A stretch of 64,000 nucleotides of DNA from Lophium mytilinum. Lineage: Eukaryota > Ascomycota > Dothideomycetes > Mytilinidiales > Mytilinidiaceae. The notes under the pieces were generated by a model that made no database searches, was not told the origin of the DNA, and was given only the letters and a program-made list of their open reading frames with translations. Position 1 is the stretch's first letter; the number at the start of each line of letters is the position of its first letter. This document shows, in pieces, positions 16,137 through 39,381 of the stretch. Both the position numbers and the translations under genes were made by a program. The stretch spans positions 269,334 to 333,333 of the forward strand of contig MU004185.1 of NCBI GenBank assembly GCA_010093605.1, written 5' to 3'.

Positions 16137-16330
16137 GCACGCTTTGGCCGCATATAGTAACTTTTCTGTCATGAAAGGGGCACGTTTTGGGGGCTTTTAG
16201 TAATACTTTCGTAGTAGTAAGGCATATTCTAGCTACAAATTCGATTTTTTAGCACTAAGAGGGCACGCTTTCGGTACTAATAGTGCTACTTTCCACATAA
16301 GTAGGGCGCCCTTCGGGTACAAACAGTAGA
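16137..16330. repeat. ~42-bp degenerate tandem repeat, about five units, in AT-rich DNA
   Basis: A GGGCACGCTTT..GG motif followed by a TAGTAATACTTTC-like stretch recurs near 16139, 16181, 16223, 16264 and 16307, with spacings of 41-43 bp. The DNA after it (to about 16530) is rich in TTA, TAT and CTTCTT and contains no long frame. This composition could reflect repeat-induced point mutation of an old repeat, but I have not measured an index. Confidence 0.65.
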
Positions 16331-16554
16331 TCTTGTAACACCAATGCGTGGTATAAAATGCTACTTCTTCTCTTCTTATTAATATTTCTTCTTCTAGGAC
16401 CGAAAGCGTTACTTCTCCCTACTTGTAATATATTCGGCTTAAAGCAACTCTAAATTATCTTATATCTTAGGCTGCTTAAACCGCGCTACTTAGACGTTTA
16501 TTTTGCTAGGTTATATACCTATAGAAGACTCCCCACAAGGTACAAGACTTTTAG

Positions 16555-17037: not shown

Positions 17038-17042
17038 GCAGA

Positions 17043-18527
17043 TTAGAGAGATCCCTTCATGTTTTCGACTTCCCTCTGCTTCGTCTTCCCTTTTCTCTCC
17101 TCAAACATACTTCTCACAACCCTCCTCGACCTCTCGCACAGAATTTGGAAAAGGGAATCGTCGACATCATCCTCTCCCTCTCCTCCCAGCATTCCTAGTA
17201 CCCAAACCCCACAATCCTCTTCCAGTACCCCTCGCCGAAAGTTCACCGCATAGTCTCGATTGACGCTGACGGTGCCGTCTAAAATTGACGTCATGCCAGC
17301 GAAGAGAGCGCCGTAGTCGTGGCGTTTATACCCTGTGGCGGGTACCACAAGATCGAATGGTTTTTCACTCGTTTGCCCGTGGCAGGTGGTTGAGAGGATG
17401 ATTTTGCCACCCACATCGCGGCGTGCGGCAGTGACTGTAGTAGAAGAGAGGAAGCGTGTCGCGGAGTTCCGAAGCTTGTTCTGTTTCGAGGGGATACGCT
17501 GGTTATACTGGGCTGCATATAGCGAATCTAATAGTGGCGAAGAGGCGGTAGGGTAGGTTGTACTCTCGTGTAGCACACTTCCTCTGATTAACTCTGGTGG
17601 GTATAGGGGGTGGGAAGTTTGCAGCGTTGTTGTCGTGCTGTCATTTATTAGCACTTCCTTTCAATCACTTGCTTTTTCTCCATTCTTTGAAGCGACAGAG
17701 ATGTTGGGGTAAGGAAAAAGAAAAGAGGATACCCACAAAGCAGTGTCTTCATCCGCTCGAAAGTGTTGTTCTTCCATCAGAACCGTAACTCGATACCTCG
17801 GATTCTTTCCGTTCAAATACTCCACAACCTCAGCAGCGTGCTGCCCACCCCCCACAACCGCGATTTCCCGTCCCCTCCACCCATCTTTCTCTCTCTTCTC
17901 TAGCTCCTCTCGAAACTCCGCCGCGTGAACCACAGCCACCTTTAAACTCTTCGATTTTAGAATAGCTGGGAAAGCGAGCTCGACGCCCATCGCACACACC
18001 ACCTTTCTCGCTCTCCATTCCCTCAATTCCCCTTTCTCTCCCTCTCTTGCGAAGACTCTAAAAGCTTCAACCTCCCCACTCCTCCCTTTAGCAGCTTCTA
18101 CACCCAGGACCTCGCACCCGAATCTGACCTCCGCCCCATCGCGAATAAATTCCTCCCCACACCACCGCAGATACGCGCGCACGAGCTCTCTACTCGGCTG
18201 CACGCGTCCGAGATTGGTGTAGTCGACGAGGAGGTTACGAGTATATAGGAAGTTTACGAAGGTGTATTTTGAGCGGGGTTCATTGGAGGTTACGAGGTCT
18301 GAGATGAAAGATGTGCTCATATGCGCTGCGGGGAGAGAGGGGCCGGGCGACCATGCTTTTTGGGGGTGTGCCTCCAGGTAGAGGGTCTTTAGAGCACTTT
18401 GAGGAATTGTGGAAGCCAGGTTTGCGGCGAGAGAGAGGGCAGTGGTGCCAAACCCGATTGTGAGGATGTCGTAGACTGGCAATGAATGATCTGAAGAAAC
18501 AGTGGGGCTGAGTTCTGAGGAAATCAT
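17043..18527 (-). CDS. SidA-like L-ornithine N5-monooxygenase family flavoprotein
   Basis: Family role: FAD- and NADPH-dependent N5-hydroxylation of ornithine, the first committed step of hydroxamate siderophore synthesis. Two exons (17733-18527 and 17043-17657) encode 469 residues. FAD loop: YDILTIGFGTTALSLAANL. The family segment ISDLVTSNEPRSKYTFVNFL matches the SidA-type DLxTxRDPRSxFTFLNYL. NADPH loop: IAVVGGGQHAAEVVEYL. The late motif is VPATGYKRHDY. Compared with the family pattern, several residues near the substrate pocket differ: PAAHMSTSF where PGxKMQxSF is usual, and TTYPTAS where TNYxVV is usual. It may be a divergent paralogue with another substrate. It is divergent from the acyl-CoA ligase gene, with iron-type GATA sites between. 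Confidence 0.8.
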
Positions 18528-19763: not shown

Positions 19764-21692
19764 ATGATATCTGAAGCTCCATCCACTGACCCCCAGCCCT
19801 TATCCTTTCTCACAGGTCCGACCGACCCACCCCTCCTCTCCCTAACACTCGCTTCCCTCCTCGACCTCCAGGCTCTTCGGTTTGCATCTTCTGAGTTCCT
19901 TGTCTTCCCATGGACAGGCGCAAGATGGAGTTTCGAAAGACTACGAGCGGAGAGTGTGGCTCTCGCAAAAGGATTAGTAGCTCTGGGAGTGCGGAGAGGT
20001 GATCGAGTTGGTGTCATGGCTGGGGACTGTGAGGAGTTCGTCGCCTTAGTGTTTGCGTGCGGACGAATAGGAGCTATTCTGGTGTTGTTTGGAATGGGAG
20101 GGAAGGAGGCAGAGGTTAGGGCTGGCTTGGAGTTTGTTGGTGAGTTGATGCGCTTGGATACTGCACGCTTGCGAGCAGGTGGATTAGGTTGAGATTTTGA
20201 ACTGGGCTGATAGGTGTATAGAATGCAAACTCTTTCTCACCACGCAAAGCATCGGGAAGCATATCGATAATACGGAACTGCTACAGCTACTGCATAATGA
20301 TCCTCCCAAGGGACTTGAGGAAGTGATATTGCTACGCGGTCGTCTGCAGCCATTCCGCGACTATGGCCTGTTAATAGATGCTGGATTGGATATTTCGCTG
20401 GAGAAGATACTGGAGCTGAGTGCACTTGTGAAACCGGAAGAAGTCTGTAACCTGCAATTCACGAGTGGGACAACCGGACGGCCGAAGGCAGCTATGTTGA
20501 CGCATTAGTGCGTATTCCCCTTTCTTTGCAGTGCTCATGTCTCGAACTACATCCAGCACTGTAAAGAAGCAAATCTTTGGAGATATCACTGACGTGTCCC
20601 AGCTGTGTGACCAACAATGCCCGCTTCATTGGATCCCGCATGGCTTTTACTCCCTCCGATACCCTCTGCTGCCCACCGCCGCTATTCCACTGCTTCGGGC
20701 TTGTGCTAGGCATGCTCGCTGCCCTCTCCCACGGCACCAAAATCGTCTACCCTTCAGAAGTCTTCGACCCCTCTGCTTGCGTTGCCGCGCTCATAGAAGA
20801 AGACTGCACAGCACTCCACGGTGTACCCGCAATGTTCGACGCCATCTTTGACGTCCTCCCCGAAGGTTTCGCAAGCGGACGTCTACGAACGGGGATTGTA
20901 GCTGGCGCGCCGGTGCCGCGGGCAATTGTAGAGGGACTACTAGGGACCTTGGGAATGCGTGAGTTCACGAGCAGTTATGGCTTGACTGAAGCGTCTCCGA
21001 CATGCTTCAATGCGTTCTACGACGACCCACTGGCTCACAGGCTCAATACTGTTGGCACGTTGATGCCGCACGCGAAGGCGAAGATTGTGGATCATGATGG
21101 GAAGACAGTCCCTGTTGGTGTGCGCGGAGAACTCTGCATTGCTGGGTATCAGCTACAAGCGGGTTATTGGCGCGATCCAGAGAAGACAGCAGAGACTATG
21201 ATGCTTGACGAGGAAGGTGCGGTATGGCTACGGACCGGTGACGAGGCTGTGTTTGATGGGAGCGGCGGATGCAAGATTACTGGTCGATTCAAGGACATTA
21301 TCATCCGAGGTACGATTCGTCCTTTGCCAGCGTTGTCGAGTACTGACACCAATTCAGGTGGCGAGAACATCTACCCCATCGAAATCGAGGAGCGACTAGC
21401 TGCCCACCCCGCCATCGCCCGTGCGGTAGTAGTCGGCCTCAAGCACCGCAAGTATGGCGAAGTCGTGACCGCATTCCTGCAAGCTAGGGATAACGAGCGG
21501 CCTTCCGATGAGGCAATCAAGGAGTGGACTTTGATGAAGCTTGGTCGGCACAAGGCTCCGGCGCATGTCTTCTGGTTCGGACACGACGGGGTCCCGATTG
21601 AGATTCCGCTGACAGGGAGTGGAAAGGTGAGAAAATTCGAAATTGCCCAGATGGGGGAAGCTTTACTGGCGCGGAGACGTCCCAAGCTGTAA
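19764..21692 (+). CDS. Acyl-CoA ligase (AMP-forming), SidI-like
   Basis: ANL-superfamily enzyme that activates a carboxylic acid as its CoA thioester. In Aspergillus SidI makes mevalonyl-CoA for fusarinine-type siderophores. Four exons (19764-20139, 20222-20507, 20603-21309, 21358-21692) encode 567 residues, normal length. Adenylation motifs: LQFTSGTTGRPKAAMLTHY (ATP loop), SSYGLTEASP, LRTGDEAVFD, GRFKDIIIRGGENIYPIEIE (read across the last intron) and LTGSGKVRKFE, with the catalytic Lys. The third intron is 48 bp and in frame, so a naive translation inserts 16 residues into the A8 motif. The protein ends RRRPKL, a possible weak PTS1. The neighbours support a siderophore role; a generic fatty-acid or aromatic acid ligase is the alternative. 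Confidence 0.82.
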
Positions 21693-21964
21693 ATATATAG
21701 TCCGATTTGCGCCCTCCAGAACATTCTTTTCACCTTCTCGAGCGTCTCATACCTCCGAGGAGATCATCCACAGATATAGACTAGCGTATAATGTACGTCT
21801 ACATCGCTCAACTTCACACGTGCGGCAAAAGGATGCAACATCGCTAGTCACAAACCAACAATAAATCAAAAGACGACTGAACTGGAATGAGGTTCGACTA
21901 TTCAATACAATGCACAAACACAAATCGTTTCTCCCCTTTTGGACCCATAGCCCTCAAACTCCCT

Positions 21965-23401
21965 TCACAGCTTCGCAGGTAACCTAATACCCGTCCCACC
22001 AACCCATCCTCCCTGACTATCCAGTGGACAGAGCTGGAAAAACCTCTCCCGCCCACACCTCATGAATGCGCTCCGCTTATGTGGTAAATCCACAAATTTC
22101 TCGATGCTAAAGCCTGTCATGAGATCATACGCCAACACAGACGCATTCTCCAACTTCGGCTCACCCACGACGGCCATAGTCCGCGGATCGTCGAGGAACA
22201 GATAGTGGATCAGCGACGCCCACCAAGCCGTCGCCCGATGCCGACCCCGGAAATTTGCATTACCGACGAGTGAGTGCCGCCCACGATCGAAGTCGTGGGG
22301 TGTGTAGTGTGCACCTAGGTGATCCTCCTATTTCCACATTAGCTTACTATCCTCAATCGTCAATCCTCACATTAAGAGCCCGCCAATAGTAAAGTCAACA
22401 ACAGATAAAGAGTGTTAACATACCTTCACCCAATAAATCTCAAAATACGCAAAATAATTCTCCTCAAATCTCGCCAACACAGCCACCTGATGCTTATCCG
22501 CATCCATCTTCCTAAGATACTCCGTATGCTGCTCCACCGTCCCCTCCTCATTCCACCCAGCCGCGACCCGGGGATCGTTCTGCCACGTATGGAACAGGTT
22601 CACATGCTCGGCATCTCTATAATCCAGCGCCACCATGCTAAAGTTCTCGTCCAGATGCGGGATATATCTGCTATAGATCACGCTCCCGGGGGTGGGCTTG
22701 GCCGGGCGCCGAGGGTGCAGCGTGTGCACCCGCGTGGACGGGAAGAGGGTCGTGAGGGTGTAGGTGAGCGCGGCTTCGTTAGCGGAGAACCTCTGTCTTG
22801 AGCCATCGGCGGACGGTAGCCACGCGGAGCCAGCGCCGAAGGGGGCGCCCGCGCCTTGCCAGAAGGTAGCTCGCAGAAGTAGGAGCTCGTTGGTGGTTGG
22901 TTCTAGGGGCTCGTTGCGGAGGGGATCTTGCTCTGGGTGGGCAATACCAAGGGAGGTAGAGATTATTGCGCTGCTGAGAGCGCTGCTTGAGGGGCCATTG
23001 AGGGCGACGCGGACGCTTTCGAGCTCGGGGCGGAGGACGAAGATGGCGTAAGAGAGCAGCCAGAATTGAGCAGGGGTGGGGGCAACGCTGGAGCTCCAGG
23101 TTAGGTTTGTGGAAAGAGAGCGACGCGCGCGAGCCCAGGCGGAGTTATTCGACGAGGGAATTGCATCGGTGCCAGGTGTGGGCTGAAGAGGCGTGAAGTA
23201 GAGATCTGAGTTGTGCAATTGGAGTGGTGGGTCGGTCTCCTCTTTGCTCAGACCGTTTTTGGGAGAGCCTTTGCGGACTTGAAGCAATTGGGTGCCGCCG
23301 TCATGCTTCTCGGTTGCTGCGATGTGGTAGGTTGTGAGATATGGATGAGGAAGACAGAGCTTCGCCAGTACTGTCTTGTCTAGAATCTCAGGAGCTGTCA
23401 T
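21965..23401 (-). CDS. N5-hydroxyornithine acyltransferase (SidF/SidL type) with PTS1
   Basis: Transfers an acyl group (acetyl, anhydromevalonyl or similar) from CoA to N5-hydroxyornithine, forming the iron-binding hydroxamate. Two exons (22424-23401 and 21965-22327, intron 96 bp) encode 446 residues, near the size of Aspergillus SidF. The C-terminal half is the GNAT-like siderophore acyltransferase domain: [20 protein letters not shown], then [29 protein letters not shown] and the ending region [19 protein letters not shown]. The start MTAPEIL was chosen because it opens the conserved part; an upstream in-frame extension is hydrophobic and unlike the family. The last three residues are AKL, a canonical peroxisomal signal, as known for SidF. 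The gene is convergent with the SidI-like gene, 273 bp between stops. Confidence 0.88.
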
Positions 23402-24886: not shown

Positions 24887-27800
24887 TCAGTCCATCATCT
24901 GATGCAGCGCATTGACTCTATAGCTTTGGCTTCTCTCAACCAAATCTTCATGCCTCCCCTGGTCTACTACCGTGCCGCCCTCCACCAAGAAGATGACATC
25001 AGCTTCACGGATAGTGTGCAGCCGATGTGCGATAGCAATGACGGTGATATCTCTAGCAGCTTTTTCGAGCCCATCTTGAAGGAGTTTTTCGCTCTCCGCA
25101 TCTAGCGCACTCGTGCTCTCGTCAAGCAGGAGTAGTTTCGGCCTCCGCACCAGCGCACGCGCAATTGCGAGACGCTGTCGTTGACCACCAGAGAGCTGGG
25201 AGCCATTCGGGCCACACTCGGTTTCGTAGCCATCGGACATTGAAACAATCGTGTTGTGGATATTCGCAAGCTTGCATGCTTCTTCGATCTCAGCGTCGGT
25301 AGCCTCGTGATCCGGGTGTGCGCCGAGAGAGACATTGAAGCGGACACTGCCCTCGAAGAGAACGCTGTCTTGTGGAACTAACGCCATCTGAGATCGGAAC
25401 TCGGTACCTTGTCGTTTCGAGATGTCGATACCGTCAACCTCGACAGCGCCAGCAGTGGGCGCGTACATGCGCTCAATGAGAGCCATGACCGTGGATTTTC
25501 CAGCGCCTGAAGGACCGACGAGGGCGCAGAATTGGCCGGGTTGGATCGTGAACGAGATTTCTTTGAGGATTTGAATGTCGGGACGCGCTGGATATGAGAA
25601 TGAGACATCTTTAAAGCTAACACTCACGCCATTCCTTGAGTTGGGCTTCTCTCTGGAGCTCGCAAAGGCTTCTACATCCTTTTCGCTCGGTTCCGGTAGA
25701 TCCGGGTCTTGACGCTTTGGTTCTAACGTTTTTGAAGAACCAATGTCAATGAGACCTACGATCCTCGACAAAGCAGATTGGGCGCGCGAAACGTCAGGTG
25801 CAAGTGCGAACATCTGACCCCATAGCTGTGCACTCACGAGCATAGCTAGGACGACGATGAAGAACTGAGTTTGGTTGTACTCTCCAGCGATGATCTGTTT
25901 TGCTCCCCACCAGTATGCGAGAGCGTAGATGAAGTTTCCACAACTATTCGCAATAGCGAGCCACAAATTGGCATATGCGCTCGCGGCAACCATCTCCTTC
26001 CGTGGAGTTTGTAGTGAACGACGATACGTAGCTAATATCTCGTCTTCGAGAGATAAAGCGGACACCATTTTGATGGAGTTGATAGCCTCTACTGCCATAC
26101 CAACGGATGTTGAGAATGCTGTCGCGTGACGCTCGTGATACTTGGATAGCACGCGAAGCTGCATCACTCCAGAGCCAAGCAAAATTGGAACAGTAGTAAG
26201 ACACACGATTGCAATCTTCCACGCTACAATGTGGCAGAGGATGATTGCGGCGAAGAGATTGACAACAATGGAGAAGATGGTGCCCATGATTGATCCAGTA
26301 AAGCCAGCGAGGTCGCTACTATCTCTCGTAATGTAAGATAGGAGCATAGTAGGATTTCTGTCCAGAGATTGATGCCATTGCAGATCTTGCTCGAAAAGTG
26401 ACCGGAAAGATAAAATGCGTAAGAAGTAGAGCAGCTTCTCAGCGACGAATCCAAATGCCGACCAGCTGATGAAGTTTGCAAAAAACTCGATGACTCCCAG
26501 CAAGAAGAAGAGTAGCGCAAAAAGCTGTCCACGAGACCGAATGCGATCCGGCTCATTGCAGGGGCTGAGACTAGCAACTGTGTTTCCAAAGATGACCCCG
26601 GACGCGGAGTAAGAACCCCCAACAACGATAGAAGTAGAGAAGGCGAGGATCAAAAGCAGAAGATATGGCCGGAATATCCAAGCTGAATGTTTGAAGGACC
26701 AAGATGATTTGGTAGACTCAGACTTAGGCTCATCCGTATCTTTCGATGGGATGTCTTTCTGTGCATTGCCTAGCTTTGAACCATCGCTCAGCTTGCTCTC
26801 AGAATGCTTGATGCCAGATACGACGTCGTCCTTCTCATTTGTGATGTCATCAATTGAGACGTCCGTAAGGCTCTGTTTGTAGGATGTGTCGCCTTGAGAC
26901 TTTGAACTACTCTGTAGATGTATCATGTTCGCAAACGATCCGCCCATTTGCATCAACTCGTCGTAGTTGCCTTGTTCGAGAATTTGACCCTTTCCCATCA
27001 CTATGATATTGTCGGCATTTTTTATCGTTGAGAGACGATGCGCAATTGATACCAGCGTCCTCCCGCGTGCGATTGATTCGATCGATGCTTGAATTCGCTT
27101 TTCGCTCATTGAATCAAGGGAAGAGGTGGCTTCGTCAAGAACGAGGACTTTAGGATCACGAATAAGTGCCTGTGCTAGTGCAAGTCGTTGCCTCTGCCCT
27201 CCACTGACTAAATCTCCACTAGAGCCAACGACTGTTCCAAGGCCATACTGCAGACGAGAAATGAACTCTGTCGCGTCCGCTAGGCTGATAGCTCGTTGTA
27301 CCGCGTCTACAATGCTGGCAATCTGTGCACCTTGCGTTTTCGCGGCCTCCATAACGTCTTCTCCATTTCTTACGGCGGCCGCAACATTGGAAAGTTGAGG
27401 TCCTTGGAGTATCGGCCTCAGTTGAACATGTTCAGCGGAGTTGATCAGGCCAAGCGCAATATTCTCCAAGATTGATCGGTCAAGAAGTAGTGGCTCTTGC
27501 TGAACAAGTCCAATCACACTCCTCAGACCTCGGACGTTGAGGGCAGAAATATCCTTCCCGTCCAGGATTACTTGCCCTTTCGTAGGGTCGTAGAGCCTGA
27601 CAAGCAAACTTGCAAGTGTAGACTTGCCGCTTCCAGATAAACCAACAATTGCTGTATGATTTCCTGCCGGACAGGTCAAAGAGATGTCCTGCAGGACCTC
27701 TTGCTCTGGCCGCGATGGATAGCTGAACGATACATTGCGGAACTCAACCTGGCCAGGCCCTGTCAGAGGCGGCTCGTTTCCCTGGTCTATGGTGCCATCA

Positions 27801-29067
27801 ATTGCTGATACATGTTCGATGTCTTTCCGGAGTTTCGAAAACGCAGCAGAGGCAGAGCCAAATATTTGAAGGAGCGGGGCGATTTGACTGAGTATGAGAG
27901 AAGCTGAGAGGTTAGCATGGCTGAACTGAGCATAAGGACACATGTTCTTACCATCAACGAGGATGAAAATGACGGTGTAGGTCTTCCCTACACTGGAGTT
28001 CTCATCGTTCGAAGCAACAGCATTTGCAATCGTTCTACTGCCCTGCCAATATGCGACGGCATTCGCTGAGTATGCGATGAAGTACAACATGCCAGATTGT
28101 GCAGCCGCAGCAAGGGCCTTCTTGATACCAGACTTCTGGGCACTCATAAGATTACCAGCAAACTTGCTCTCCAGACGCGCATTAGCTCCAAATGCGTGTA
28201 CGACATAGACATGCGATAGAGCCTCGGAAGCGATAGAGGCAGCGGACGCAGCGTAATTGGTCATCTGCGTGGAATACTTCCCAACGAACTTGCCACCAAC
28301 CAAGGACATGAGTAGGAAAGCTGGAACTAGGGAAACTAGAATGCCGGCTAATCTAGCATCCTTGATGAAGGCGACGATGTAGGCGGTGACGAAGAATGAG
28401 CAGCTGGCCATGCAGATGCCAACTTTCTCGGACGTTCCAGTCTGAATGATGGTAATATCGCCATTCAAGCGGGATGATACTTCGCCAGCTTGGAGGTTGT
28501 CGAAGAAAGAAACCTGTTGCCGTAGTAGACTTTTGAAGTACTTTTCGCGGATCCGCTGGGCAAGTCGCTGGCCGATCAGACTCCAGGACAAAATGTAGAT
28601 GTAAATAGCAGCAAAGCCACCTATACTAATGTAGACGACTTGTAACACCTTGTCGTTGACAGCAGATTGATAGGCATCTGCGTCACCAATGCCTGCACTA
28701 CACGTCGCGGAGTTCAAATCATCGACTAATTGACCAAACAAGATGCCCATGAGGGGAAAGGGCACACCTGCTGCAATGGCTGAAATCCCGCCTACCGCTA
28801 GGAGAAGGATGTCTAGCCATGTCGGCTCAGCGTATACGAGGAGTTGGAGATAGCTGGAAAAATTCCGGAATGCCTTGAGTCACGGTTCAGGAGCAGTTCC
28901 ATGGGTTTATCAATAGATTGCATAACTGACCTGAAAGTGACCCTTCTTCTCCAACGGTTGGTGAGCTTCAGCGTCTGGGGTGGTCGAGGACGCGTCTGCC
29001 ATAGTTCTTCACGGCTTTCGAACGTGAAGTAGCGGCCGAGCATCTCGAATGTCAATGGGTCGCCCAT
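24887..29067 (-). CDS. ABC transporter, ABCB (MDR/P-glycoprotein) full type
   Basis: ATP-driven exporter with the order TMD1-NBD1-TMD2-NBD2. Exons 28931-29067, 27952-28853 and 24887-27903 give 1351 residues. The 48-bp second intron is in frame and easily missed. NBD1: GLSGSGKST (Walker A), VSGGQRQRLALAQAL (signature), VLVLDEATSSLD (Walker B). NBD2: GPSGAGKST, LSGGQRQRLAIARAL, LLLLDESTSALD. The first exon (MGDPLTFEMLGRYF..) supplies the cytosolic N-terminus and runs into TMD1 (AEPTWLDILLLAVGGISAIA). Aspergillus siderophore clusters carry a comparable ABC transporter (SitT), so a plasma-membrane role in siderophore or fragment efflux is plausible. Substrate choice cannot be read from the sequence. 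It is divergent from the MFS transporter. Confidence 0.92.
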
Positions 29068-29780
29068 GGCTGGTGACGGTGTGTCAGGTGACGGTGGGTA
29101 TAGTGGATACACGGGATTGAGTAGGGATAGGGATAGGGATGGCCTCGAGGCAGCGCTGGCGGCTGGGCGATGGGGTCGCAAGTCTTGGGATGGAAGTCTG
29201 AGTGCGAGGATGATCCCTCCGATGCCGGACCCGCGAGGTGGGAGCAAGGTTATCGAATCTGATTAGATTTGTCACTAAGGCCGCCTCTGCCGCCCCAAAA
29301 AGCCACCAGAAGCCCCCAAAGCGCCACAACCACGCGGGGCCTCGAACCGACATCACCCTGCATTATCACCACGTCCAAGGAGGCGGCACAGTGGGATGGC
29401 GCCGGACGTGAAAATTTTCATCTAATCAGATCAAATCAGATCACCTTCCTTCGGTCATTCCCGGGCCTGAGGCACGGGATAGTTCTACGCCGCGTTGCTA
29501 ACTTGCATCCTCGTCGCCAGGACGCCGTCCGCACGGCAGCATGCATCTAAGCAGCATTAGCCCCGACACTACTCAACTTGGCGTCTATTGGACAGGCTAC
29601 GGACTCCATTTCATTGCTCGAGTGTGCCAATCATGCCTTGATTCAGGCCGAGAGGGGTTGATCAAATATATTTGTCCACCTGCCGTATTTTACTTCCCAG
29701 CACCTCGTCTTCCATCTCTTTGTACCAGTGTATGTTGAGCAGGGGCACCGTCTTCAATCAACACCGCCTTTCAAACCATC
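29068..29780. promoter_or_regulatory. Divergent promoter between the ABC and MFS transporter genes
   Basis: 713 bp. No perfect ATCWGATAA site, but three one-mismatch copies lie here: ATCTGATTA at 29257-29265, and ATCAGATCA at 29425-29433 and 29435-29443 in tandem, 10 bp apart. They may be weaker GATA-factor sites shared by both transporters. Confidence 0.5.
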
Positions 29781-31631
29781 ATGCCTTCTCCCTTCGAGAA
29801 GGACACCGTCGCTGGTGATGGAGGCGCCAGCATCCACTCCCAGGGCCATTCGAATGCCAACAGTTCTAATGACAACAGCGATACCGAAGCCCTCTCGGCT
29901 GACGCCCAGCATGGTGTACAGGCTGCACAAGCTACCAACCAAGTCTGGAGCAAGAGTAGCTTGATCACGGCCTACCTGCTGTAAGTTGAGGAATAAGACA
30001 GATTGTGGAAGTTTCTCTAACATGTTTCTCAGCATCTGGCTGATCGCATTCGTCGATGCTATGCAGCAAGGCATGGCCAACGCCTTGACTCCGTATGTAA
30101 CGAGTGACTTTGCTCTGCACTCCTTGACCGCGACCACCGGTATCATGTCCAGTCTTATTGGGGGGCTGTCGAAGCTCACCCTTGCCAAAATTTTGGACAT
30201 TTTTGGTCGTCCTCAAGGTTTCCTCTTCATGGTCGTTCTCCTGACTCTGGGCCTCATCATGATGGCTGCCTGCAACAATGTTGAGACTTATGCTGCCGCT
30301 CAAGTGTTCTACTGGGTTGGGTATGTTAACCACCACGTCCACTCATGGCACTTGCCTAATCCTGCTGTAGTTACAACGGGCTCAACTTCACCACTGGAAT
30401 CTTCGTTGCCGATACCTCACATCTCAAGAACCGAGCTTTTATGTTTGCCTTCATTTCATCACCGTACATCGCTACCACTTGGATTGGCGGACCACTCGCC
30501 ACTGCTTTCTTGAAAGGACCTGGTTTCAGATGGGGCTTCGGCGTTTTCGCTATCGTCACCCCCATAGTCTGCATGCCCCTCTACTTCCTGTTCGCCTGGA
30601 ATTACGGCAAAGCCAAGAGGGCCGGCCTGGTACCCAAAACGGAAACAGGCAGGACTTTTTTCCAGTCTTTGAAATACTACCTCATTCAGTTCGACGCCAT
30701 GGGACTTCTTCTCATCACTGGAGGTCTAGCGCTTTTCCTCCTACCATTCAGTCTCTACTCGTACCAGAGAGATGGCTGGAGGTCTGCACTGGTCATCTCC
30801 ATGATCATAGTTGGCGGCCTTCTCATTATTGCCTTCGCTCTTTACGAGAAGTTTCTGGCGCCCGTCAAATTCATGCCTTTCGAATTGATGATGGACCGCA
30901 CTGTTCTCGGCGCTTGCATACTTTCCGCCACCATCTTCGTCAGCTTCTACGTCTGGGACAGCTACTTCTCCTCCTTCCTCCAAGTCGTCAACAACCTTTC
31001 AGTCACAGAAGCCAGCTATGTCGTCAACATCTACAGCATCGGATCATGCTTCTTCTCCCTGATAGTGGGTGTGGTCATCAGATGGACCGGCAAATTCAAG
31101 TGGCTTGCGCTCTACTTTGGCGTCCCGTTGACCATCCTTGGTGTGGCCCTCATGATTGCTTTCCGTCAGCCAGACGTCAACATCGGATACATCGTCATGT
31201 GCCAGATCTTCATCGCTTTCGCCGGTGGAACATTGGTCATCTGCGAGCAAATCGCCGTCATGGCTGCTGGCTCTCATCAACAAGTTGCCGTTCTCCTCGC
31301 TGTGGAAGGTATGTTCGCAAACGTCGGTGGCGCTATCGGCTCCACTGTCGCTGCAGCTATCTGGACTGGTGTTTTCCCAGTCAAGCTACTCAAGCACCTG
31401 CCAGAGGACGCCAAGGGCGATGTTGTGTCCATTTATTCGAGCATTGTCACTCAGCTATCCTACCCAGTCGGCTCTCCCGTCCGAACCGCAATCCAACAGG
31501 CTTACGGTGAAGCGCAAAGATACATGCTGATTGGCGGATCTACGGTATTGGTGCTCTCAATCGTCTCGGTCATAGTCTGGAGAGACATCCAAGTGAAAGA
31601 CTTCAAGCAAGTGAAGGGTCTGGTCGTCTAG
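29781..31631 (+). CDS. MFS siderophore-iron transporter (SIT family, MirB-like)
   Basis: Imports ferric siderophores across the plasma membrane by proton symport. Three exons (29781-29980, 30033-30320, 30371-31631) encode 582 residues, typical of the 14-span SIT family. After a ~60-residue polar N-terminus come many hydrophobic spans, starting LIWLIAFVDAMQQGMANALT, a form of the SIT first helix. Further SIT-like features are LTAKILDIFGRPQGF-type loop text (here LTLAKILDIFGRPQGF, the cytosolic loop 2-3), FVADTSHLKNRAFMFAF and the late YGEAQRYMLIGG segment. The location inside the siderophore block and opposite the ABC transporter fits uptake of the product. Which siderophore is carried cannot be said. 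Confidence 0.88.
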
Positions 31632-31856
31632 AAGCCGTCTTCTATGCGCGGTTCTTGGGGGATAACATCGTACTATTTCATAGCCTCCTCATGATCTAGA
31701 TGCCCATTCATCCAAGACGAAAAAAGCTTATAGACCGCCTCGCGTTAATCAAGAAAGACACCTCTCTCTCGCTCACCCTAGAACATCTTCACATCCTGAT
31801 TGCACCACTCTCGTAGCCATCCTTGCTTGTCTTCATGCTCCACTACTCTTCCTGTA

Positions 31857-32561
31857 TCACTGCTTACACCACTCCTCCCACCCGATCTCCAAACTCTTCG
31901 GCATCCTCACCATCAACGGCACCTCCACATCCTCCGCCTCCCCCACCAACTCCCCCCGATGCCTCACCCGTCCCACCTCCTCAAACCCCAGGCTCCTATA
32001 CAACCCCTCTCCCTCCACCGAACTCTCCAAATACACCGGCAGCCCCGCCTGCTCGCCAACCTCAATCCCCCACTGCATCAGCTTCCTCCCAATACCTCGC
32101 TTCTGATATTCAGGATGCACGGCGACTACATGACAATAGACATGCCGCTTCCCCCCAAAAAACCCTTCTTTCTTCCGCACCATCTCCCCCAGCAACTCCT
32201 CCGCCCGCTCCCTCTCCTTCCCTGCTAACCACTCCACCCCCTTCCACTTCCACTCCTCCTCAGTCCGTTCGGTGAGATGAATATCCCATAGCCCCATCCC
32301 GACGACCTCTCCGCTTGCCACATCGACGGCTTTGAAGGTGTACTGAAAGCCAGAGGCGGGGGAAGCGAGCCAGGCGAGCGTGTGGGCAGTGTGGGATTCG
32401 CGGAATTCGGCGGTGGGGACGGTGTCTGAGGCGGTGGGGTAGGCGGAGGGGAATAGGAGCCGGGGGAGGGCGGAGCCGGCGAAGGCGAGGAAGTAGATGT
32501 CGTAGACTTTTGGGGTGTCGGCGGGTTGGGCGGGAAGGACGAGGTGGGCGGAGGGTGGCAT
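31857..32561 (-). CDS. GNAT-family N-acetyltransferase
   Basis: Intronless frame of 234 residues. The acetyl-CoA binding motif A is clear: HVVAVHPEYQKRGIGRKLMQWG (V..HPxxQxxGxG), followed by LPVYLESSVEGEGLYRSLGFEEVGR, the typical motif B region. The N-terminal half (VYDIYFLAFAGSALPRLLFP) is common in fungal single-domain GNATs of unknown substrate. In Aspergillus fumigatus SidG, a small acetyltransferase, converts fusarinine C to triacetylfusarinine C. Position between the transporter and the NRPS makes a SidG-like role possible, but this family is large and I see no diagnostic residue. It is convergent with the MFS gene and divergent from the NRPS gene. Confidence 0.8.
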   Translation of the reverse strand: MPPSAHLVLPAQPADTPKVYDIYFLAFAGSALPRLLFPSAYPTASDTVPTAEFRESHTAHTLAWLASPASGFQYTFKAVDVASGEVVGMGLWDIHLTERTEEEWKWKGVEWLAGKERERAEELLGEMVRKKEGFFGGKRHVYCHVVAVHPEYQKRGIGRKLMQWGIEVGEQAGLPVYLESSVEGEGLYRSLGFEEVGRVRHRGELVGEAEDVEVPLMVRMPKSLEIGWEEWCKQ

Positions 32562-33630
32562 GGTGGATATGAGGGTTGGATTTGAAGGTATAAGCTAGAG
32601 TGGGAGAGGAAGTGTGGTTCGGAGTAGATCCCGTGAGTAAAAAACCAGGCGTTGATGAGAATTGAGCTCAGAGATTGAGATAGCTATGCAAAACGAGGAT
32701 GGACGTTTCAAGACCGAAATATGCCGGGATTGAAGTGAAGAAAATCGCGTTCGGCGCGTGAGAATGGCCGGAAGCTTGCAAATGGCGTGCAAAGCGTCCA
32801 GACTACTACATTCTCCGATCGGCATCATTCATCCCACATACGTGAAAAGTTACGTTGCATCTTACTGGAATCCGAAACACCGTATATGTCCCCGATCTCG
32901 GCCGCCCCCTCTCACCACCAAAGACCCACATAGCCCACACTGCTGATGACATGGGTGGCACCGCTCCACGTCCGGCAGGAGGAGACTTCGGATCAGATAA
33001 TTACCCGTCCGCGTCGCCGTGGGGGAGGCGGGTGGCGTTAGTCACTGCTCGGAGTGCCTTTTAGTCCTTGATTTTCCTCGCAGGTGACCCCATGTGTAAC
33101 AGACGCAGGTGGAGTCCCCTAGATCATAGCATCAGTGTTAAATGGCGCACGCCTCTAACGGTCATGCAGCCGAGGGTATCCATCGGAGCATGCCCTGACG
33201 TGGAGGCCCAGGGAGAAATCGGCTCTTGCGCGGAGAGCGTGTGAACGACATTCTAGCTTCGTCCGCTTGGTTTTAGGTTGAACTTAGTGCTAAGCGAGGT
33301 AGGAAGTGTGATGTGGATGCATGTAGCATGTGCCTGAAGTGACGGAGGTGGATGGGTTTCGACGGATGCGTGGGAAAGTGAAGCGGCCGTCGGAGGCCTT
33401 ACGTAGGAGGAAACATGGGAGGTAGTGTCTCCGAAAGGAAGGCGGATTACAGTTAATCAAGTTTGAATGTCAATTTCAGGGAATCATACCACAGTGGTAG
33501 CATAGGAGCGAGCTCGGCCGCCCGTCACCACGCACGCGGAGACGATCTTATGGAAACGCACCTCGACTTACCTCTCCTCTCTATCATTTGCTGCGCCATA
33601 TACCTCCACAGAATTCTTTCGTTGTCTATG
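32562..33630. promoter_or_regulatory. Divergent GNAT-NRPS promoter with one ATCWGATAA site
   Basis: 1.07 kb between the two start codons. A perfect ATCAGATAA lies at 32992-33000, 639 bp before the chosen NRPS start. In-frame sequence upstream of that start runs back to about 33463 and includes another ATG at 33550 in poor context; it probably belongs to the 5' leader. Confidence 0.65.
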
Positions 33631-36600
33631 ATGCATGATACTCTTTCCAGCGACGCAGAGTGTGCATTAGAAGCAACCGTGAACCAGGTACCTGGAGTGT
33701 TGGATGGCACCCAATCATCGGTGAGAGAAGAGACGGAGATTCCCAAAGAGCCCGAGGAACCCGAGGGCGAGGGGGTCATATCTGAAGGTCCAGCGGAAGG
33801 GGAGGTGCAGATCACTGAACCCTATGTCGACGTCAAACCTTTGGAAAAGAAGGAGGTACACACCTCGACGACAAGGTTTCCCTCAAAGCTTGAAATCGTA
33901 TCAGAAACCCCTGCAAAGGCAGAGGTAGATGTAAAAATCAATGAACCCCAACCCCGGATTGCCATCAAGCCCCCAGAAAGAAATGAAATTCATACCTCGG
34001 CCTCCTCGACACCATCACCGCTCAAATCCTCAAGTTCCAGCGTGGGCGAGGCAACAGCAGCGTCACCCACCCTTTCCGCGAATAGCTCAAGTGACGACCG
34101 GAACACTGCATTCTCCACAACCGCTTCGACTGCCGTATCTACCAAAGACGTCGATCTAAACAACGTCAGTGAGAAAGATCTCGATCAGATATGGCAGTGG
34201 AATGCTGCCGTCCCGCCGAATTTGACCACATGCATGCATGATATCATCTCCGAACAAGCGGCCAAGAATCCTGATAAGATTGCCATCACTTCCTGGGATG
34301 GGGAGCTCTCATATCGGCAGGTCGACGAGAAATCCACGAGCTTGGCACACCACTTGAGAAGCTTAGGCGTGGAAGTAGGGAGTCATGTCCCACTCTGCTT
34401 CGAGAAATCGATGTGGACCGTCGTGGCCGTCCTGGGTGTTATGAAAGCAGGTGGTGCGTTCGTGTTGACGGATCCGAGTCAGCCGGAGGAAAGATTAAAG
34501 AACATGGTTCACCAAACAGGCGCGAACGTAGTCGTAACATCGCCAACACAGAAAGAGCTAGGCCAGCGGATAGCACCCTTCGCAACTATAATCACCGTAT
34601 CCGCAGAGCTCTTTTCCGTTCTCAAGAAGGATTCGGGGAAAGCAGAACTCGACGCTCTTCCCCCAGTCCCACTATCCTCAACCCTCTACATCATCTTTAC
34701 CTCCGGCTCCACGGGGACACCTAAAGGCGTCGTAATCCCTCACGCCGCTTTCACATCTGGCGCCCTTCCCCGCGCGCACATCGTCGGTTACCGTTCCCAC
34801 TCACGCGTCCTCGACTTTGCTTCTTATGCCTTCGACGTCAGCATCGACTGCATGCTCTGCACACTCGCAGCGGGCGGTTGCATCTGCGTGCCATCGGATG
34901 CTTCCCGTCTGAACGACCTTAGTGGCGCTATCCGCTCCATGAACGTGAACATGGCGCATATGACGCCTTCCGTCGCTAGGGTGCTAGAGCCGGGGGTGTT
35001 AGAGTCGTTAGAGGTGTTGGGGCTGGGCGGCGAAAGCGTGTCGGCGAGCGATGCGTCGGAATGGGGGCGGAAAACGCGGGTTATTATCGCGTATGGTCCG
35101 AGTGAGTGTACCGTAGGGTGTACGATTAATGGCGATATTGAGATCGGAAAGGCTTATACGAGTATTGGAAAGGGGGTGGGCGGTGTCACGTGGATTGTAG
35201 ACGCCACGGATCACGACAAACTCGTGCTAGTTGGTGAAGTGGGTGAGCTGTTGATTGAAGGACCAATTGTGGGCGAGGGGTATCTAGGTGAGCCAGAGAA
35301 GAGTAAGGTGGTGTTCATTGAAGATCCCAAGTGGCTGCTTGCTGGCGGCCGGAATGTATCGGGCAGAAAAGGGAGGCTATATAAGACTGGCGACTTGGTG
35401 AAGTACGCTCCAGATGGGTCTGGGAGGATTGTGTTCGTGGGGCGTGGTGATCAGCAGGTAAAGCTGAGAGGTCAACGAATCGAGCTTGCGGAAGTCGAGT
35501 ACCATCTCCGAAACCACTTACCGTCAGGGACGAGCGTCGTAGCAGAGGTCATTATGCCGGGAGGCCACGGAGACCCGTCTCTTGTTGCTTTCGTCGTAGA
35601 AGCATTCAAAGAGGAAAGAGAGCATTTCGAGAATGCAGCGGTGTCGATATCTCCTGTGCTCGAGCGCGCTCTTGCAGAAATGGACCAGAGGCTTGCAGCG
35701 ACACTACCGATATACATGATTCCTTCGGCATACATTCCGCTTCCTCAGCTGCCATCTCTAGTCTCTGCAAAGATAGACCGTAAGAAGCTCCGCGCGATCG
35801 GGGCTGCAATATCGCGGCAGGACCTTGCAAAGTACCGCATAGCGCAGATGGACTCCCGGAAACCGGAAACGGAGATGGAACTCAGAATTCTGGGCCTCTG
35901 GAAACAGGTCTTGGGCTCACAACTCACAATCAGTGCCAACGATAGCTTCTTCGGGCTCGGAGGCGATTCTTTGAAAGCAATGAAGCTCGTGGCCGCCGCA
36001 AACTCAAACGGACTTGTCCTCACGGTCGCCAGCATCTTCAAACACCCTAAGCTAACCGATATGGCTCTTCAAGCCAGCTCCAAGAAAACGGACGAAGAGC
36101 TGGAGGTACCCGCATTCTCTCTGTTAGACGGGTGGGATGTAGACTCGGCGCGTCAAGAAGCAGCCGAGCTCTGCGTATTGGAAGCATCATCCATCGAAGA
36201 TATTTACCCTTGCACACCACTGCAAGAAGGTCTGATGGCTCTTTCAGTGAAGATAGAAGAAGCCTACGTCGCGCAGCGAGTCGTGAATCTGCCGAATATC
36301 GAGATAGCCAAGCGGCTGCAAGCCGCTTTCAACACCGCATCCATCGAATCCCCTATCCTACGAACTCGGATCGTCCAATTTCCTGGCCGTGGCCTGATGC
36401 AAATCGTCGTAAACGAGGAGGCCTTTTGGTACTCTCGTGCAAATCTAGAAGAATACCTCACTGAAGATCGAGAAAAGCCAATGGGCCTCGGTGTCCCCCT
36501 CGCACGGTACGGGCTCGTGACCCACGAAAAGACCAGCCGCGTCGATGTGGTCTTGACTATGCACCACGCTCTTTACGATGGATGGTCGATGCCATTAATC

Positions 36601-39381
36601 GCTGACCGCGTCAACCGAATTTACCAAGGGCTGAAGACTCAACAATCAGCACCATTCAAGAGCTTTATCAAACACCTTCATGGTACTAATCGAACGGGCT
36701 CGGAAACGCACTGGCGGGAGAACCTACACGGCGCCACTGGTCGTACTTTTCCCGAACTCCCCTGGACTGGATACCAAACACAAGCCGATTCTGTACTCGA
36801 GCGATACGTCCCTCTCCCCAGGCGCTCCACCTCGAGTACGACTATCGCGACCGCAATTCGCGGAGCATGGGCGTTGGTGTCAGGCATTTACTCTGGGTCC
36901 AAGGATATCGTGTTCGGAGAAACTCTGACTGGCCGGAACGCGCCTATTGCAGGCGTCGAAAGTATCGAAGGGCCTATGATTACCACAGTCCCTATCCGCG
37001 TTCGAATCGACGGCAGCACCACGGTCTCCGAATACCTGCAAGAGATCCACGACGATGCGGTCCTTCGCATGCCACACGAGCATCTGGGTCTGCAGAACAT
37101 TCGACGTCTAAGCGCCGATGCGCGCGAGGCTTGCGAATTGCGGACCGGTCTCGTCCTACATCCCAGCAATGCAGACGACGAGAGACCAGCGACTGATGAT
37201 AAGCCCGCAAACGGTTTTGTTCCCGCCGGCGACTCTGAGGCTGCACGAGAGGCTTTGAAGTTTAACACATATGCTCTCATGCTTGTCTGCGCTCTGGACG
37301 ATCATGGTTTCCTCATGATGGCGAGTTTCGATTCCAAAACGGTTGGTGTACCTCAAATGCAAGATGCTTTGGTTCATATGGAGCGTCTGGTGCAGCAGCT
37401 TTGCGAAGCGCCGAACAAGAGGGTTGGGGACTTGGAGTATACTACACAAATGGAACGAGAGGAGCTACGTCGACTCAGTCTTGTTGGTCCACATAGCAAA
37501 GTCGACAGGAATGTCCTTGGGGGTGCTACAGCAACGTGGATAGTCGACCGTACGAATGCTGAGGTTCTTCTGCCAATTGGTGGTTTAGGAGAGCTACTTA
37601 TCGAGAGCCCGACGGATCTCGCTCTACATTCTATCGAATTTCCAGCTTCGATCGATGCGATCTTTGCCGAACAGTCCGCACACGAGAAGATACTGTACCG
37701 GACCGGCCAGCTCGCGAGATACAACGCAGACGGGTCCATTGTTATCGTTGGCTCTGTAGAAGAGGAAGAGAAGTCGCAGTCCAACATTCCAAAGCCAACC
37801 CCAAAGGCTCGAGTATCCGCAGTCTCAGCGAAACAGCGAAAGCTCCTCCGAATCTGGAGCCGCACCCTCCAAATTGACGAAACCGAAATCGGACTCACTG
37901 ACAGCTTTTTTCAACTAGGCGGTGAGTCCATCGGAGCCATGAAGTTGGTATCTGAAGCGCGGCTCGAAGGTCTCGAACTGAGTGTTGCGCAAGTGTTCAA
38001 GGCGAGGACGCTGTACGAAATGGCGAATGTAGTCGAGGATTTCCAGGCGTCAGAGACAGTGGCGAAGCCGCATACACCTTTCGCGGCACTCGGTATTCCT
38101 GACGTGGAGTCTTTCTTGACCGAGTCAATCAAGCCGGCACTTGCAGATCCTTCCTGGACGGTCGTAGACATCTTACCAGCACGGCCACTCCAAGAAATCG
38201 CTGTGCAAGGAACCGTGAAGCTGCCTCGCTATTCCGTGCGGTATGAAGCCTTCTACCTTGACGCCGCCATCGACCGCGAGCTACTCTTTCGCAGCTGTCA
38301 AGAACTCGTCTCCCGCAACGAGATCCTCCGCACCATCTTCGTTGAAGCCGAAAGTAGCTGCTACGGAGTCGTTCTGCAGGACCTGCAAGTTGAAATCAAT
38401 GAGTATAATGTTGAAGGCGACGTGAAAGATTTTTGCCACAAATACTGCGAGCTAGACGTCCAAACACGCATGCCACTCGGAACCCCTTTCGTCAAGTTCA
38501 CGTTCGTGCAAGGCGAGGACGGGAACAGCGGTCTCATTTTCCGGATCTCCCACGCGCAATACGATGAGATCTGTCTTCCTATCATGCTGCGTCAGCTCTC
38601 AGCCATCTACCAGGGACAAGCCTCACCAGAAACATTACCGTTCTCTTCTTTCGTCAATCACGTAGTATGCGAGACAATTCCTGCGAGTATACCATACTGG
38701 CGCGAGCTGCTTCAAGGCTCCTCAATGTCCATACTACGCCCAGACATTCCACTCGAATCCAGAAACGCAGTATCATTCTACAAAACAGTAGACATCTCCG
38801 CGCGGTCTAAGGACATCACCATAGCCACCCTTCCCACCGCCGCATGGGCCCTCTGCTTAGCCCGCCGCCTCTTGACCTACGACGTCACATTTGGCGAGGT
38901 AGTCAGTGGGCGGAACATCGACCTCCCTAACGCTGACGCCGTCATCGGACCGTGCTGGCAGTACGTCCCCACTCGCGTGAAGTTCGAAGACGGCTGGACT
39001 GCGCTCGACCTCCTCAACCTCGTACAACGGCAGCACATAGCTAGTGCACCATTCGAGAGCATGGGGCTCAAAGAGATTGTCGAGAAGTGTACAAACTGGC
39101 CGAGCAGTGTCGACTGGTTCGATTCGGTCGTGCATCAGGACGTCGATCATGTCGAAAACTTAGCATTCTTATCCGCAAATAGCAAGATGGAGACGATTTA
39201 CCCGCATCTCGAGCCGTTGCGGGAGTGGAAGATACAGGCGTTCCCGCAAGGTGATACTTTGACGCTTGAGGTTGTAACATTTGAGTCGTGGGGAGAGTAT
39301 GCGCAGGGTTTGTTGGACGAGTTGGTGGAGATTATGGGGATGTTGGTGAACAGCTACGACTCTAAGATTGTATTGAATTGA
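33631..39381 (+). CDS. Nonribosomal peptide synthetase for an extracellular siderophore (NPS6/SidD type)
   Basis: Links N5-acyl-N5-hydroxyornithine units by ester or peptide bonds. Intronless, 1916 residues from the chosen ATG. After a ~190-residue charged leader, domain order is A1 (about 190-750), T1 (770), C1 (845-1270), degenerate A2 (1290-1385), T2 (1428), C2 (1490-1910). A1 motifs: FTSGSTGTPKGV, FDVSIDCMLCTLAAGG, YKTGDLVKYAPDGS, GRGDQQVKLRGQRIELAEVE. T1: FFGLGGDSLKAMKL. C1: MHHALYDGWSMP (HHxxxDG intact). A2 keeps only the A5-A7 tail (GGATATWIVD, YRTGQLARYNADGS). T2: FFQLGGESIGAMKL. C2 carries SHAQYDE instead of HHxxxDG. A-T-C-dA-T-C is the published layout of NPS6 and SidD. Start: 33631 has A at -3; in-frame ATGs also occur at 33628 and 33550. 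Confidence 0.9.
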   Translation: MHDTLSSDAECALEATVNQVPGVLDGTQSSVREETEIPKEPEEPEGEGVISEGPAEGEVQITEPYVDVKPLEKKEVHTSTTRFPSKLEIVSETPAKAEVDVKINEPQPRIAIKPPERNEIHTSASSTPSPLKSSSSSVGEATAASPTLSANSSSDDRNTAFSTTASTAVSTKDVDLNNVSEKDLDQIWQWNAAVPPNLTTCMHDIISEQAAKNPDKIAITSWDGELSYRQVDEKSTSLAHHLRSLGVEVGSHVPLCFEKSMWTVVAVLGVMKAGGAFVLTDPSQPEERLKNMVHQTGANVVVTSPTQKELGQRIAPFATIITVSAELFSVLKKDSGKAELDALPPVPLSSTLYIIFTSGSTGTPKGVVIPHAAFTSGALPRAHIVGYRSHSRVLDFASYAFDVSIDCMLCTLAAGGCICVPSDASRLNDLSGAIRSMNVNMAHMTPSVARVLEPGVLESLEVLGLGGESVSASDASEWGRKTRVIIAYGPSECTVGCTINGDIEIGKAYTSIGKGVGGVTWIVDATDHDKLVLVGEVGELLIEGPIVGEGYLGEPEKSKVVFIEDPKWLLAGGRNVSGRKGRLYKTGDLVKYAPDGSGRIVFVGRGDQQVKLRGQRIELAEVEYHLRNHLPSGTSVVAEVIMPGGHGDPSLVAFVVEAFKEEREHFENAAVSISPVLERALAEMDQRLAATLPIYMIPSAYIPLPQLPSLVSAKIDRKKLRAIGAAISRQDLAKYRIAQMDSRKPETEMELRILGLWKQVLGSQLTISANDSFFGLGGDSLKAMKLVAAANSNGLVLTVASIFKHPKLTDMALQASSKKTDEELEVPAFSLLDGWDVDSARQEAAELCVLEASSIEDIYPCTPLQEGLMALSVKIEEAYVAQRVVNLPNIEIAKRLQAAFNTASIESPILRTRIVQFPGRGLMQIVVNEEAFWYSRANLEEYLTEDREKPMGLGVPLARYGLVTHEKTSRVDVVLTMHHALYDGWSMPLIADRVNRIYQGLKTQQSAPFKSFIKHLHGTNRTGSETHWRENLHGATGRTFPELPWTGYQTQADSVLERYVPLPRRSTSSTTIATAIRGAWALVSGIYSGSKDIVFGETLTGRNAPIAGVESIEGPMITTVPIRVRIDGSTTVSEYLQEIHDDAVLRMPHEHLGLQNIRRLSADAREACELRTGLVLHPSNADDERPATDDKPANGFVPAGDSEAAREALKFNTYALMLVCALDDHGFLMMASFDSKTVGVPQMQDALVHMERLVQQLCEAPNKRVGDLEYTTQMEREELRRLSLVGPHSKVDRNVLGGATATWIVDRTNAEVLLPIGGLGELLIESPTDLALHSIEFPASIDAIFAEQSAHEKILYRTGQLARYNADGSIVIVGSVEEEEKSQSNIPKPTPKARVSAVSAKQRKLLRIWSRTLQIDETEIGLTDSFFQLGGESIGAMKLVSEARLEGLELSVAQVFKARTLYEMANVVEDFQASETVAKPHTPFAALGIPDVESFLTESIKPALADPSWTVVDILPARPLQEIAVQGTVKLPRYSVRYEAFYLDAAIDRELLFRSCQELVSRNEILRTIFVEAESSCYGVVLQDLQVEINEYNVEGDVKDFCHKYCELDVQTRMPLGTPFVKFTFVQGEDGNSGLIFRISHAQYDEICLPIMLRQLSAIYQGQASPETLPFSSFVNHVVCETIPASIPYWRELLQGSSMSILRPDIPLESRNAVSFYKTVDISARSKDITIATLPTAAWALCLARRLLTYDVTFGEVVSGRNIDLPNADAVIGPCWQYVPTRVKFEDGWTALDLLNLVQRQHIASAPFESMGLKEIVEKCTNWPSSVDWFDSVVHQDVDHVENLAFLSANSKMETIYPHLEPLREWKIQAFPQGDTLTLEVVTFESWGEYAQGLLDELVEIMGMLVNSYDSKIVLN

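Follow-up and report, generated by a model that had tools for sequence, protein, structure and literature searches.

A siderophore gene cluster of Lophium mytilinum with a SidA paralogue that probably no longer fits ornithine

The window, that is, the whole stretch of DNA analyzed here, comprises 64,000 nucleotides of the Lophium mytilinum genome (C5:269334-333333); searches were extended to the entire genome (43.18 Mb in 24 contigs), and comparisons with other fungi were drawn from published papers or the PDB. As a sequence-only reading of the window had proposed, positions 17043 to 39381 hold seven adjacent genes, and all seven proved intact, with reading frames, splice sites and Pfam family matches supporting each of them. 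The genes and the regions between them, with their copies of the motif ATCWGATAA, are as follows:

17043..18527, minus strand: SidA-like flavin N-monooxygenase paralogue ('SidA2'), 461 aa, one intron (17638-17736), PF13434
18528..19763, no strand: divergent promoter of SidA2 and SidI, three ATCWGATAA sites (19216, 19361, 19715)
19764..21692, plus strand: SidI-like acyl-CoA ligase, 567 aa, three introns, C-terminus PKL, AMP-binding domain
21965..23401, minus strand: SidF orthologue (N5-hydroxyornithine:anhydromevalonyl-CoA transacylase), 446 aa, intron 22328-22423, C-terminus AKL, matching 7qf6 and PF13523
23402..24886, no strand: region upstream of SidF, four ATCWGATAA sites (23793, 23887, 23978, 24053)
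24887..29067, minus strand: full-length ABCB-type (P-glycoprotein-like) ABC transporter, 1367 aa, intron 28854-28930, matching ABCB1 structures and Pfam
29068..29780, no strand: divergent promoter of the ABC and MFS genes, no ATCWGATAA site, two ATCWGATWA variants
29781..31631, plus strand: MFS transporter, probably a siderophore-iron transporter (SIT), 582 aa, introns 29981-30032 and 30321-30370, MFS_1 and TRI12
31857..32561, minus strand: GNAT acetyltransferase, 234 aa, single exon, PF00583, PF13508 and PF13673
32562..33627, no strand: divergent promoter of the GNAT and NRPS genes, one ATCWGATAA site (32992)
33628..39381, plus strand: NPS6/SidD-type NRPS, 1917 aa, single exon, A-T-C-(A remnant)-T-C by Pfam and motifs

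On either side of these genes, Pfam matches in 10 of the 25 flanking ORFs, those that were checked, revealed nothing of siderophore type. The NRPS is directly adjoined by a divergent pair of UPF0261 and PEP_hydrolase-like genes (39960-42753), which has no ATCWGATAA site and therefore probably lies outside the cluster. Further to the right, 58316-61258 encodes an NACHT/NPHP3-type NTPase with a SesA N-terminal domain (Pfam), which we take to be of the NLR-like kind tied to fungal incompatibility. To the left lie repeats and an ORF that weakly matches RNase H; beside this ORF stands a 147-nt repeat in three copies about 174 bp apart (13462-14009 and 14346-15809), and together they are likely the remains of a retroelement at the left edge of the cluster. 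The zone from 16100 to 17042 is AT-rich and repetitive, with RIP-like indices of 1.39 and 0.87, and a 134-bp repeat copy (D2) reaches position 17047, across the stop codon of the SidA-like gene. A relative of the repeat zone (16100-17047) was found at C18:892223-892374, with 85% identity over 152 bp.

The reading of these genes as a siderophore cluster also stood, given the SidF orthologue, the NPS6-type NRPS, the peroxisomal signals and the SreA-type sites. The SidF protein matched the structure of Aspergillus fumigatus SidF (7qf6) over residues 8-429 (E 2.9e-124, 418.6 bits) and PF13523 with 164 bits, and it ends in the PTS1 tripeptide AKL, as A. fumigatus SidF is reported to do (PMC3709128). 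Having been left as 'SidF/SidL-type' by the sequence-only reading, this protein can now be assigned to SidF and not to SidL, a separate SidL-like gene with a PF13523 domain being present on contig C12 (no ATCWGATAA in 10 kb). The PKL tail of the ligase is described as a functional variant of PTS1, and the same source assigns to SidI a PTS1 in Sordariomycetes and a PTS2 in other Ascomycetes; judged by their sequence, the AKL and PKL tails would fit the peroxisomal scheme laid out there (PMC3709128). The ligase matched AMP-binding with 267 bits and its top PDB matches are generic acyl-CoA ligases, its presumed place as SidI coming from context and characteristic motifs. Its closest paralogue in the genome, C13:1098906-1100034, has two exons with 45% and 55% identity and no ATCWGATAA in 10 kb.

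In the NRPS, Pfam recognized a single AMP-binding stretch and two each of Condensation and PP-binding, and the motifs of the protein (LGGDS at 777, HHALYDG at 979, an A-domain remnant at 1321 and 1357, LGGES at 1430, and a terminal C domain) give a full A-T-C module followed by a module without a working A domain; a SidD homologue has been described as one full module plus one that lacks adenylation (PMC8656255). A second NPS6 was sought in the genome and rejected, as no other NRPS is comparably identical, the next best one being multimodular and aligning in pieces of 27-39% identity. A second large multimodular NRPS, at C3:444509-460595, has adenylation pieces 36-39% identical to the window's NRPS, which places it closer than the genome's SidC-like NRPS (27-32%), and it has no ATCWGATAA in the 40 kb around it. 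The ABC protein matched ABCB1 structures (best E 2e-206) and has two ABC_membrane and two ABC_tran domains, hence two TMDs and two NBDs. The MFS protein matched MFS_1 (68.5 bits) and TRI12 in Pfam and nothing in the PDB; we consider it a probable SIT, its subfamily being taken from context and characteristic motifs. A simple hydropathy analysis suggested 11 TM segments in this protein, which we count against the assignment, the siderophore transporters of Cladophialophora carrionii being described with 13-14 (PMC10382037). The GNAT protein matched generic families only (43 bits in Pfam, weak PDB matches); it and the MFS protein are thus assigned at family level, and the GNAT protein is not callable as SidG from its sequence here.

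Three of the seven genes (GNAT, MFS and acyl-CoA ligase) belong to large families and are recognized here by family, not by orthology, and so one may ask whether the seven are a chance neighborhood and no co-regulated pathway. Against this stand published clusters with largely the same gene set (PMC2275787, PMC10382037, PMC5932178) and the promoters. ATCWGATAA is the published SreA motif (PMC2610380) and nearly the same as the Histoplasma consensus, RATCWGATAA (PMC2275787). It occurs eight times in the window, against 1.00 expected (sd 1.01; maximum of 5 in 100 shuffles), and all eight copies sit in cluster promoters, three, four and one of them in three of the four regions, though these regions make up 4,500 of the 64,000 bases (binomial 6e-10 under uniform placement). 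With these data we regard a chance neighborhood as extremely improbable, and the enrichment supports a shared regulation of the cluster, as far as binding motifs can indicate it.

Two features of the promoters were counted against this view: the ABC/MFS region has no exact site and only the two ATCWGATWA variants, and the three sites between the SidA-like gene and the ligase are closer to the ligase, lying 548, 403 and 49 bp from its start and 689, 834 and 1188 bp from that of the SidA-like gene. The relaxed motif RATCWGATAW with one mismatch showed no enrichment (28 matches in the window, 24.8 expected), and HGATAR, with 17 of 152 copies in cluster promoters (P 0.04), was uninformative; counts of ATCWGAT were set aside, since this motif is its own reverse complement and each copy is counted twice. 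Twelve further stretches of the genome (114 kb) had no ATCWGATAA in nine cases and four, two and one copies in the other three, and since they were picked for their siderophore-like genes they are no neutral background. The four copies are on C3, three between a sidA gene and its neighboring NRPS and one within that NRPS; two lie upstream of an MFS gene at C3:1788063, and the single copy is close to another MFS gene, at C2:2627613. At C14:517272-517850, a pair of GATA zinc fingers separated by about 500 bp may, by their sequence, represent a candidate SreA.

That the cluster covers almost the whole path, as had been claimed, is an overstatement, for SidH is absent from it and its SidA-like protein lacks the four ornithine contacts of SidA. 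The best candidate for SidH, C19:1126812-1127596, ends in SKL and matches 23 of 41 residues of a published SidH C-terminus; it ranked first among the 14 loci that were compared from a total of 21 PF00378 matches, and the lack of ATCWGATAA in the flanks examined speaks mildly against it. Two other loci with the motif upstream were rejected as SidH, their best frames matching 5 of 14 residues (C15:179995, which ends in HKL) and 11 of 34 (C3:1122409), versus the 23 of 41 on C19. A canonical SidA is encoded at C3:1636308-1637500, next to the SidC-like NRPS. It scored 266.7 bits in a genome profile search with PF13434, shares 57.9% identity with A. fumigatus SidA and retains K107, N293, N323, S469, Q102 and S257 (residues are numbered here as in A. 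fumigatus SidA). Position 279 is Lys, as is reported for P. brasiliensis (PMC7359926). The adjacent NRPS has four adenylation regions, counted across ORFs, three Condensation and two PP-binding stretches, and a last ORF without adenylation, an architecture that suits SidC/NPS2.

The same profile search recovered two real N-monooxygenase loci, the second being the cluster's SidA-like protein (176.7 bits, and 210 bits in Pfam), and the best match elsewhere reached 38.2 bits. This protein is 30.2% identical to A. fumigatus SidA (4b63) and 27.6% to PvdA (3s5w), and it retains the Lys_Orn_oxgnase domain and the FAD/NADPH motif residues G46, G48, G253, G255, Q256, A258, A259 and E260. The ornithine-binding residues of L-ornithine N5-monooxygenases of the SidA/PvdA kind are gone: all four ornithine contacts are replaced (K107S, N293T, N323T, S469Q), as are the cofactor-side positions Q102, S257 and R279 (Q102S, S257H, R279E), such that it keeps none of the six residues K107, N293, N323, S469, Q102 and S257. 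These six were invariant in 80 of 80 bacterial relatives, the best 80 of at least 549 confirmed, a set that leans to Pseudomonas and in which S257 was partly preselected, as one of the two search patterns took only S or H at this position. The K, N, N and S contacts are thus common to the C3 SidA, A. fumigatus SidA, PvdA and all 80 bacterial loci. In SidA, mutation of K107 to alanine is reported to abolish hydroxylation, and N293A, N323A and S469A to weaken ornithine binding (PMC7347517).

Given these replacements, an ornithine hydroxylase activity of the SidA-like protein is very unlikely, as judged from its residues. It could still be proposed that it is a second ornithine N5-hydroxylase dedicated to the cluster, which would hold ornithine by other residues and provide the cluster with its own supply of hydroxyornithine. 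Its membership in PF13434 agrees with this proposal, as do two precedents: the in-cluster sidA2 of C. carrionii is called an ornithine monooxygenase orthologue (PMC10382037), and SID1 of the Histoplasma cluster, which is divergent from the ligase gene SID4, is described as a true hydroxylase (PMC2275787). We nevertheless find it distinctly unlikely, as the four replaced contacts include K107, whose alanine mutant is inactive (PMC7347517), all six positions that are invariant in the best 80 of at least 549 bacterial relatives have changed, and a canonical SidA is present on C3. In the portions of the open-access PMC literature that were available, we found no paper on a fungal cluster SidA paralogue with replaced ornithine contacts.

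The divergence of the SidA-like protein is not confined to these positions. Of the columns invariant in 83 other sequences it keeps 30 and loses 12 (of 42), T405 and G406 being among those kept besides the glycine and cofactor motif residues, and of the 87 columns with a conservation of at least 95%, 49 are kept and 38 lost. This loss shows that the divergence is broader than the substrate pocket, and it would also suit general decay. A tree was built from 34 sequences, namely PvdA, A. fumigatus SidA, the C3 SidA, the SidA-like protein and a selection of 30 from the 80 bacterial loci in which Pseudomonas was thinned. The SidA-like protein had the longest end branch in it, 7.89, and so its exact placement is unsure. 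A recent transfer of the gene from bacteria was rejected, as its intron (17638-17736; GTGGGT..ACAG, with a CTAAT branch site) matches that of the C3 sidA in position and phase, splitting the same Phe codon; the best tree also opposes a transfer, placing the protein on one side with both fungal SidAs, without significance (support 58/93). Ten introns that keep the frame are possible in this gene, and this one was chosen for its branch site and for the match with C3; N293T depends on the choice, and K107S, N323T and S469Q fall outside the intron.

The long branch and the 38 lost columns could also be the marks of a decaying relic, that is, of a once functional cluster sidA, redundant with the C3 copy, that eroded beside the RIP-affected repeat. 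The D2 copy over its stop codon and the indices of the adjoining zone (1.39 and 0.87) agree with such a history, and the RIP-like indices rise at the gene's repeat-rich 3' edge (the gene has 0.82 and 1.05, whereas the ligase has 0.67 and 1.27 and the NRPS 0.65 and 1.11). RIP was rejected as the source of the active-site changes: the replacement of Lys by Ser, of Asn by Thr and of Gln by Ser requires transversions, the codons being, by the genetic code, unreachable from those of Lys, Asn and Gln by C-to-T or G-to-A changes. Moreover, despite its great divergence the gene retains its splice signals and a frame open over 461 codons (the chance of 461 random codons being free of stops is 2.4e-10), and 30 of the 42 invariant columns are kept, and hence we deem a relic unlikely. 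The simplest reading of these residues and of the intron is that the protein represents a SidA paralogue of old fungal origin whose substrate pocket has been rebuilt.

As for what such a paralogue might do, two directions are considered. Q102 is lost besides the ornithine contacts, and so oxygenation itself may have been lost. The protein would then keep its cofactors without oxygenating, and might either reduce flavin or ferric siderophores with NADH or assist the true SidA as a regulatory partner. Consistent with this, Q102 and R279, which are described as belonging to an NADPH/FAD contact triad (PMC7359926), have both changed while the cofactor-motif residues were kept, and the R279E mutant of SidA is reported to prefer NADH (PMC7347517). 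We hold this option to be doubtful, as no positive sequence evidence points to a reductase and the literature, in the parts available, offered no precedent. Most likely, the SidA-like protein would still be an oxygenase dependent on FAD and NAD(P)H and acting on another substrate, the nature of which is a matter of speculation. One tentative idea, to which we give a low probability, is that of a neofunctionalized N-oxygenase that would add an extra N-O to a siderophore already assembled in part or in full, the alpha-amine of a coprogen or fusarinine being one conceivable site; in the fungal siderophore literature, as far as its texts were available, we found no gene assigned to such a tailoring step.

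Taken together, we consider it likely, on the strength of homology and motifs, that this locus is an iron-repressed siderophore cluster whose SidA paralogue has ceased to fit ornithine. The product would be an extracellular anhydromevalonyl-hydroxamate siderophore of the coprogen or fusarinine type. In the pathway we propose, the SidA encoded on C3 would hydroxylate ornithine at N5, and the ligase, directed to the peroxisome by PKL, would make mevalonyl-CoA, which a hydratase encoded elsewhere (the C19 candidate with its SKL end, presumably SidH) would dehydrate. SidF, bearing AKL, would then move the acyl group onto hydroxyornithine, and the NPS6-type NRPS would link the units. The ABC protein would export the product and the MFS protein re-import its ferric form, both directions being presumed; the GNAT protein may acetylate a free amine, and the SidA-like protein may oxidize another nitrogen, for instance in a later intermediate or in the finished siderophore. 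When iron is plentiful, SreA would presumably repress the cluster via ATCWGATAA.

SidA is discussed as an antifungal target. Surveys name such paralogues ornithine monooxygenases (PMC10382037, PMC6941272), and if the replacements seen here hold in other fungi with a sidA2, functional SidA enzymes have been overcounted and a well-studied iron-uptake pathway contains an enzyme step without an assignment. If the tailoring idea is true, in-cluster SidA paralogues annotated as second ornithine hydroxylases might be misannotated. The replaced active site is the part of this locus that deserves the attention of specialists; the cluster is otherwise an ordinary one, of the known NPS6/SidD type for extracellular hydroxamate siderophores, with a layout that is already published.

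The sequence-only reading had placed its emphasis elsewhere, holding the linkage of an ornithine hydroxylase to the rest of the genes to be remarkable. It was right that sidA is unclustered in Aspergillus (PMC5932178, PMC8656255). The weight put on the linked hydroxylase was misplaced, because none of the four ornithine contacts survives in the linked gene, the canonical SidA is encoded on C3 by the SidC-like NRPS, and a linkage of sidA to the sidD/NPS6 cluster is in print for Histoplasma (PMC2275787) and C. carrionii (PMC10382037).

The SidA-like protein shares the family and the cofactor motifs with A. fumigatus SidA (4b63) and PvdA (3s5w) and differs from them at the four ornithine contacts and at Q102, S257 and R279. 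Diamine N-hydroxylases of the SsDesB type are likewise reported without K107, N293 and S469 of SidA, which would fit a substrate without an amino-acid carboxylate (PMC10696468); the SidA-like protein scores about 148 bits with PvdA and SidA and 44.5 bits with the putrescine hydroxylase 7us3, to which it is less close. A sidA gene adjoining sidC, as on C3, is also described in T. reesei and C. higginsianum (PMC5932178) and in Metarhizium (PMC8656255), and a lysine/ornithine monooxygenase gene near nps2 in Alternaria (PMC7046739). Sclerotinia is reported to have three ornithine-monooxygenase genes, none of them in the NPS6 cluster (PMC6941272). Scedosporium apiospermum would resemble L. mytilinum, with its SidI-like ligase and its SidH candidate on C19, in having sidA by sidC, sidD with sidF, sidI and transporters, and sidH in another region, and differs from it in that a single sidA is listed, outside the sidD cluster, and that sidL lies within that cluster (PMC5932178).

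The closest likenesses are to the two fungi with linked genes. In C. carrionii, a sidD-sidF-sidH-sidI-sidA2-ABC-MirD cluster is described apart from a sidA1-sidC locus, and C. bantiana is said by the same account to have the same two loci (PMC10382037). As in L. mytilinum, there are two SidA-type genes, one by sidC and one in the sidD/NPS6 cluster beside sidF, sidI (putative in L. mytilinum) and ABC and MFS transporters; in contrast, sidH lies within the C. carrionii cluster and sidA2 shares its promoter with the MFS gene, whereas here sidH is absent from the cluster and the SidA-like gene is paired with the ligase (PMC10382037). Expression of sidA1 and sidI was tested there, and ferricrocin was found while the product of the SidF-SidD branch was not; a search of the paper's available text for five active-site terms returned nothing on SidA residues (PMC10382037). 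The cluster of Histoplasma capsulatum, SID1-SID4-SID3-NPS1-ABC1-MFS1, has largely the same gene set, the same divergent pair of a SidA-type gene and a ligase (SID1/SID4) and the motif RATCWGATAA, and it differs in that its SID1 is a functional ornithine hydroxylase, the disruption of which is reported to have abolished hydroxamate siderophores (PMC2275787).
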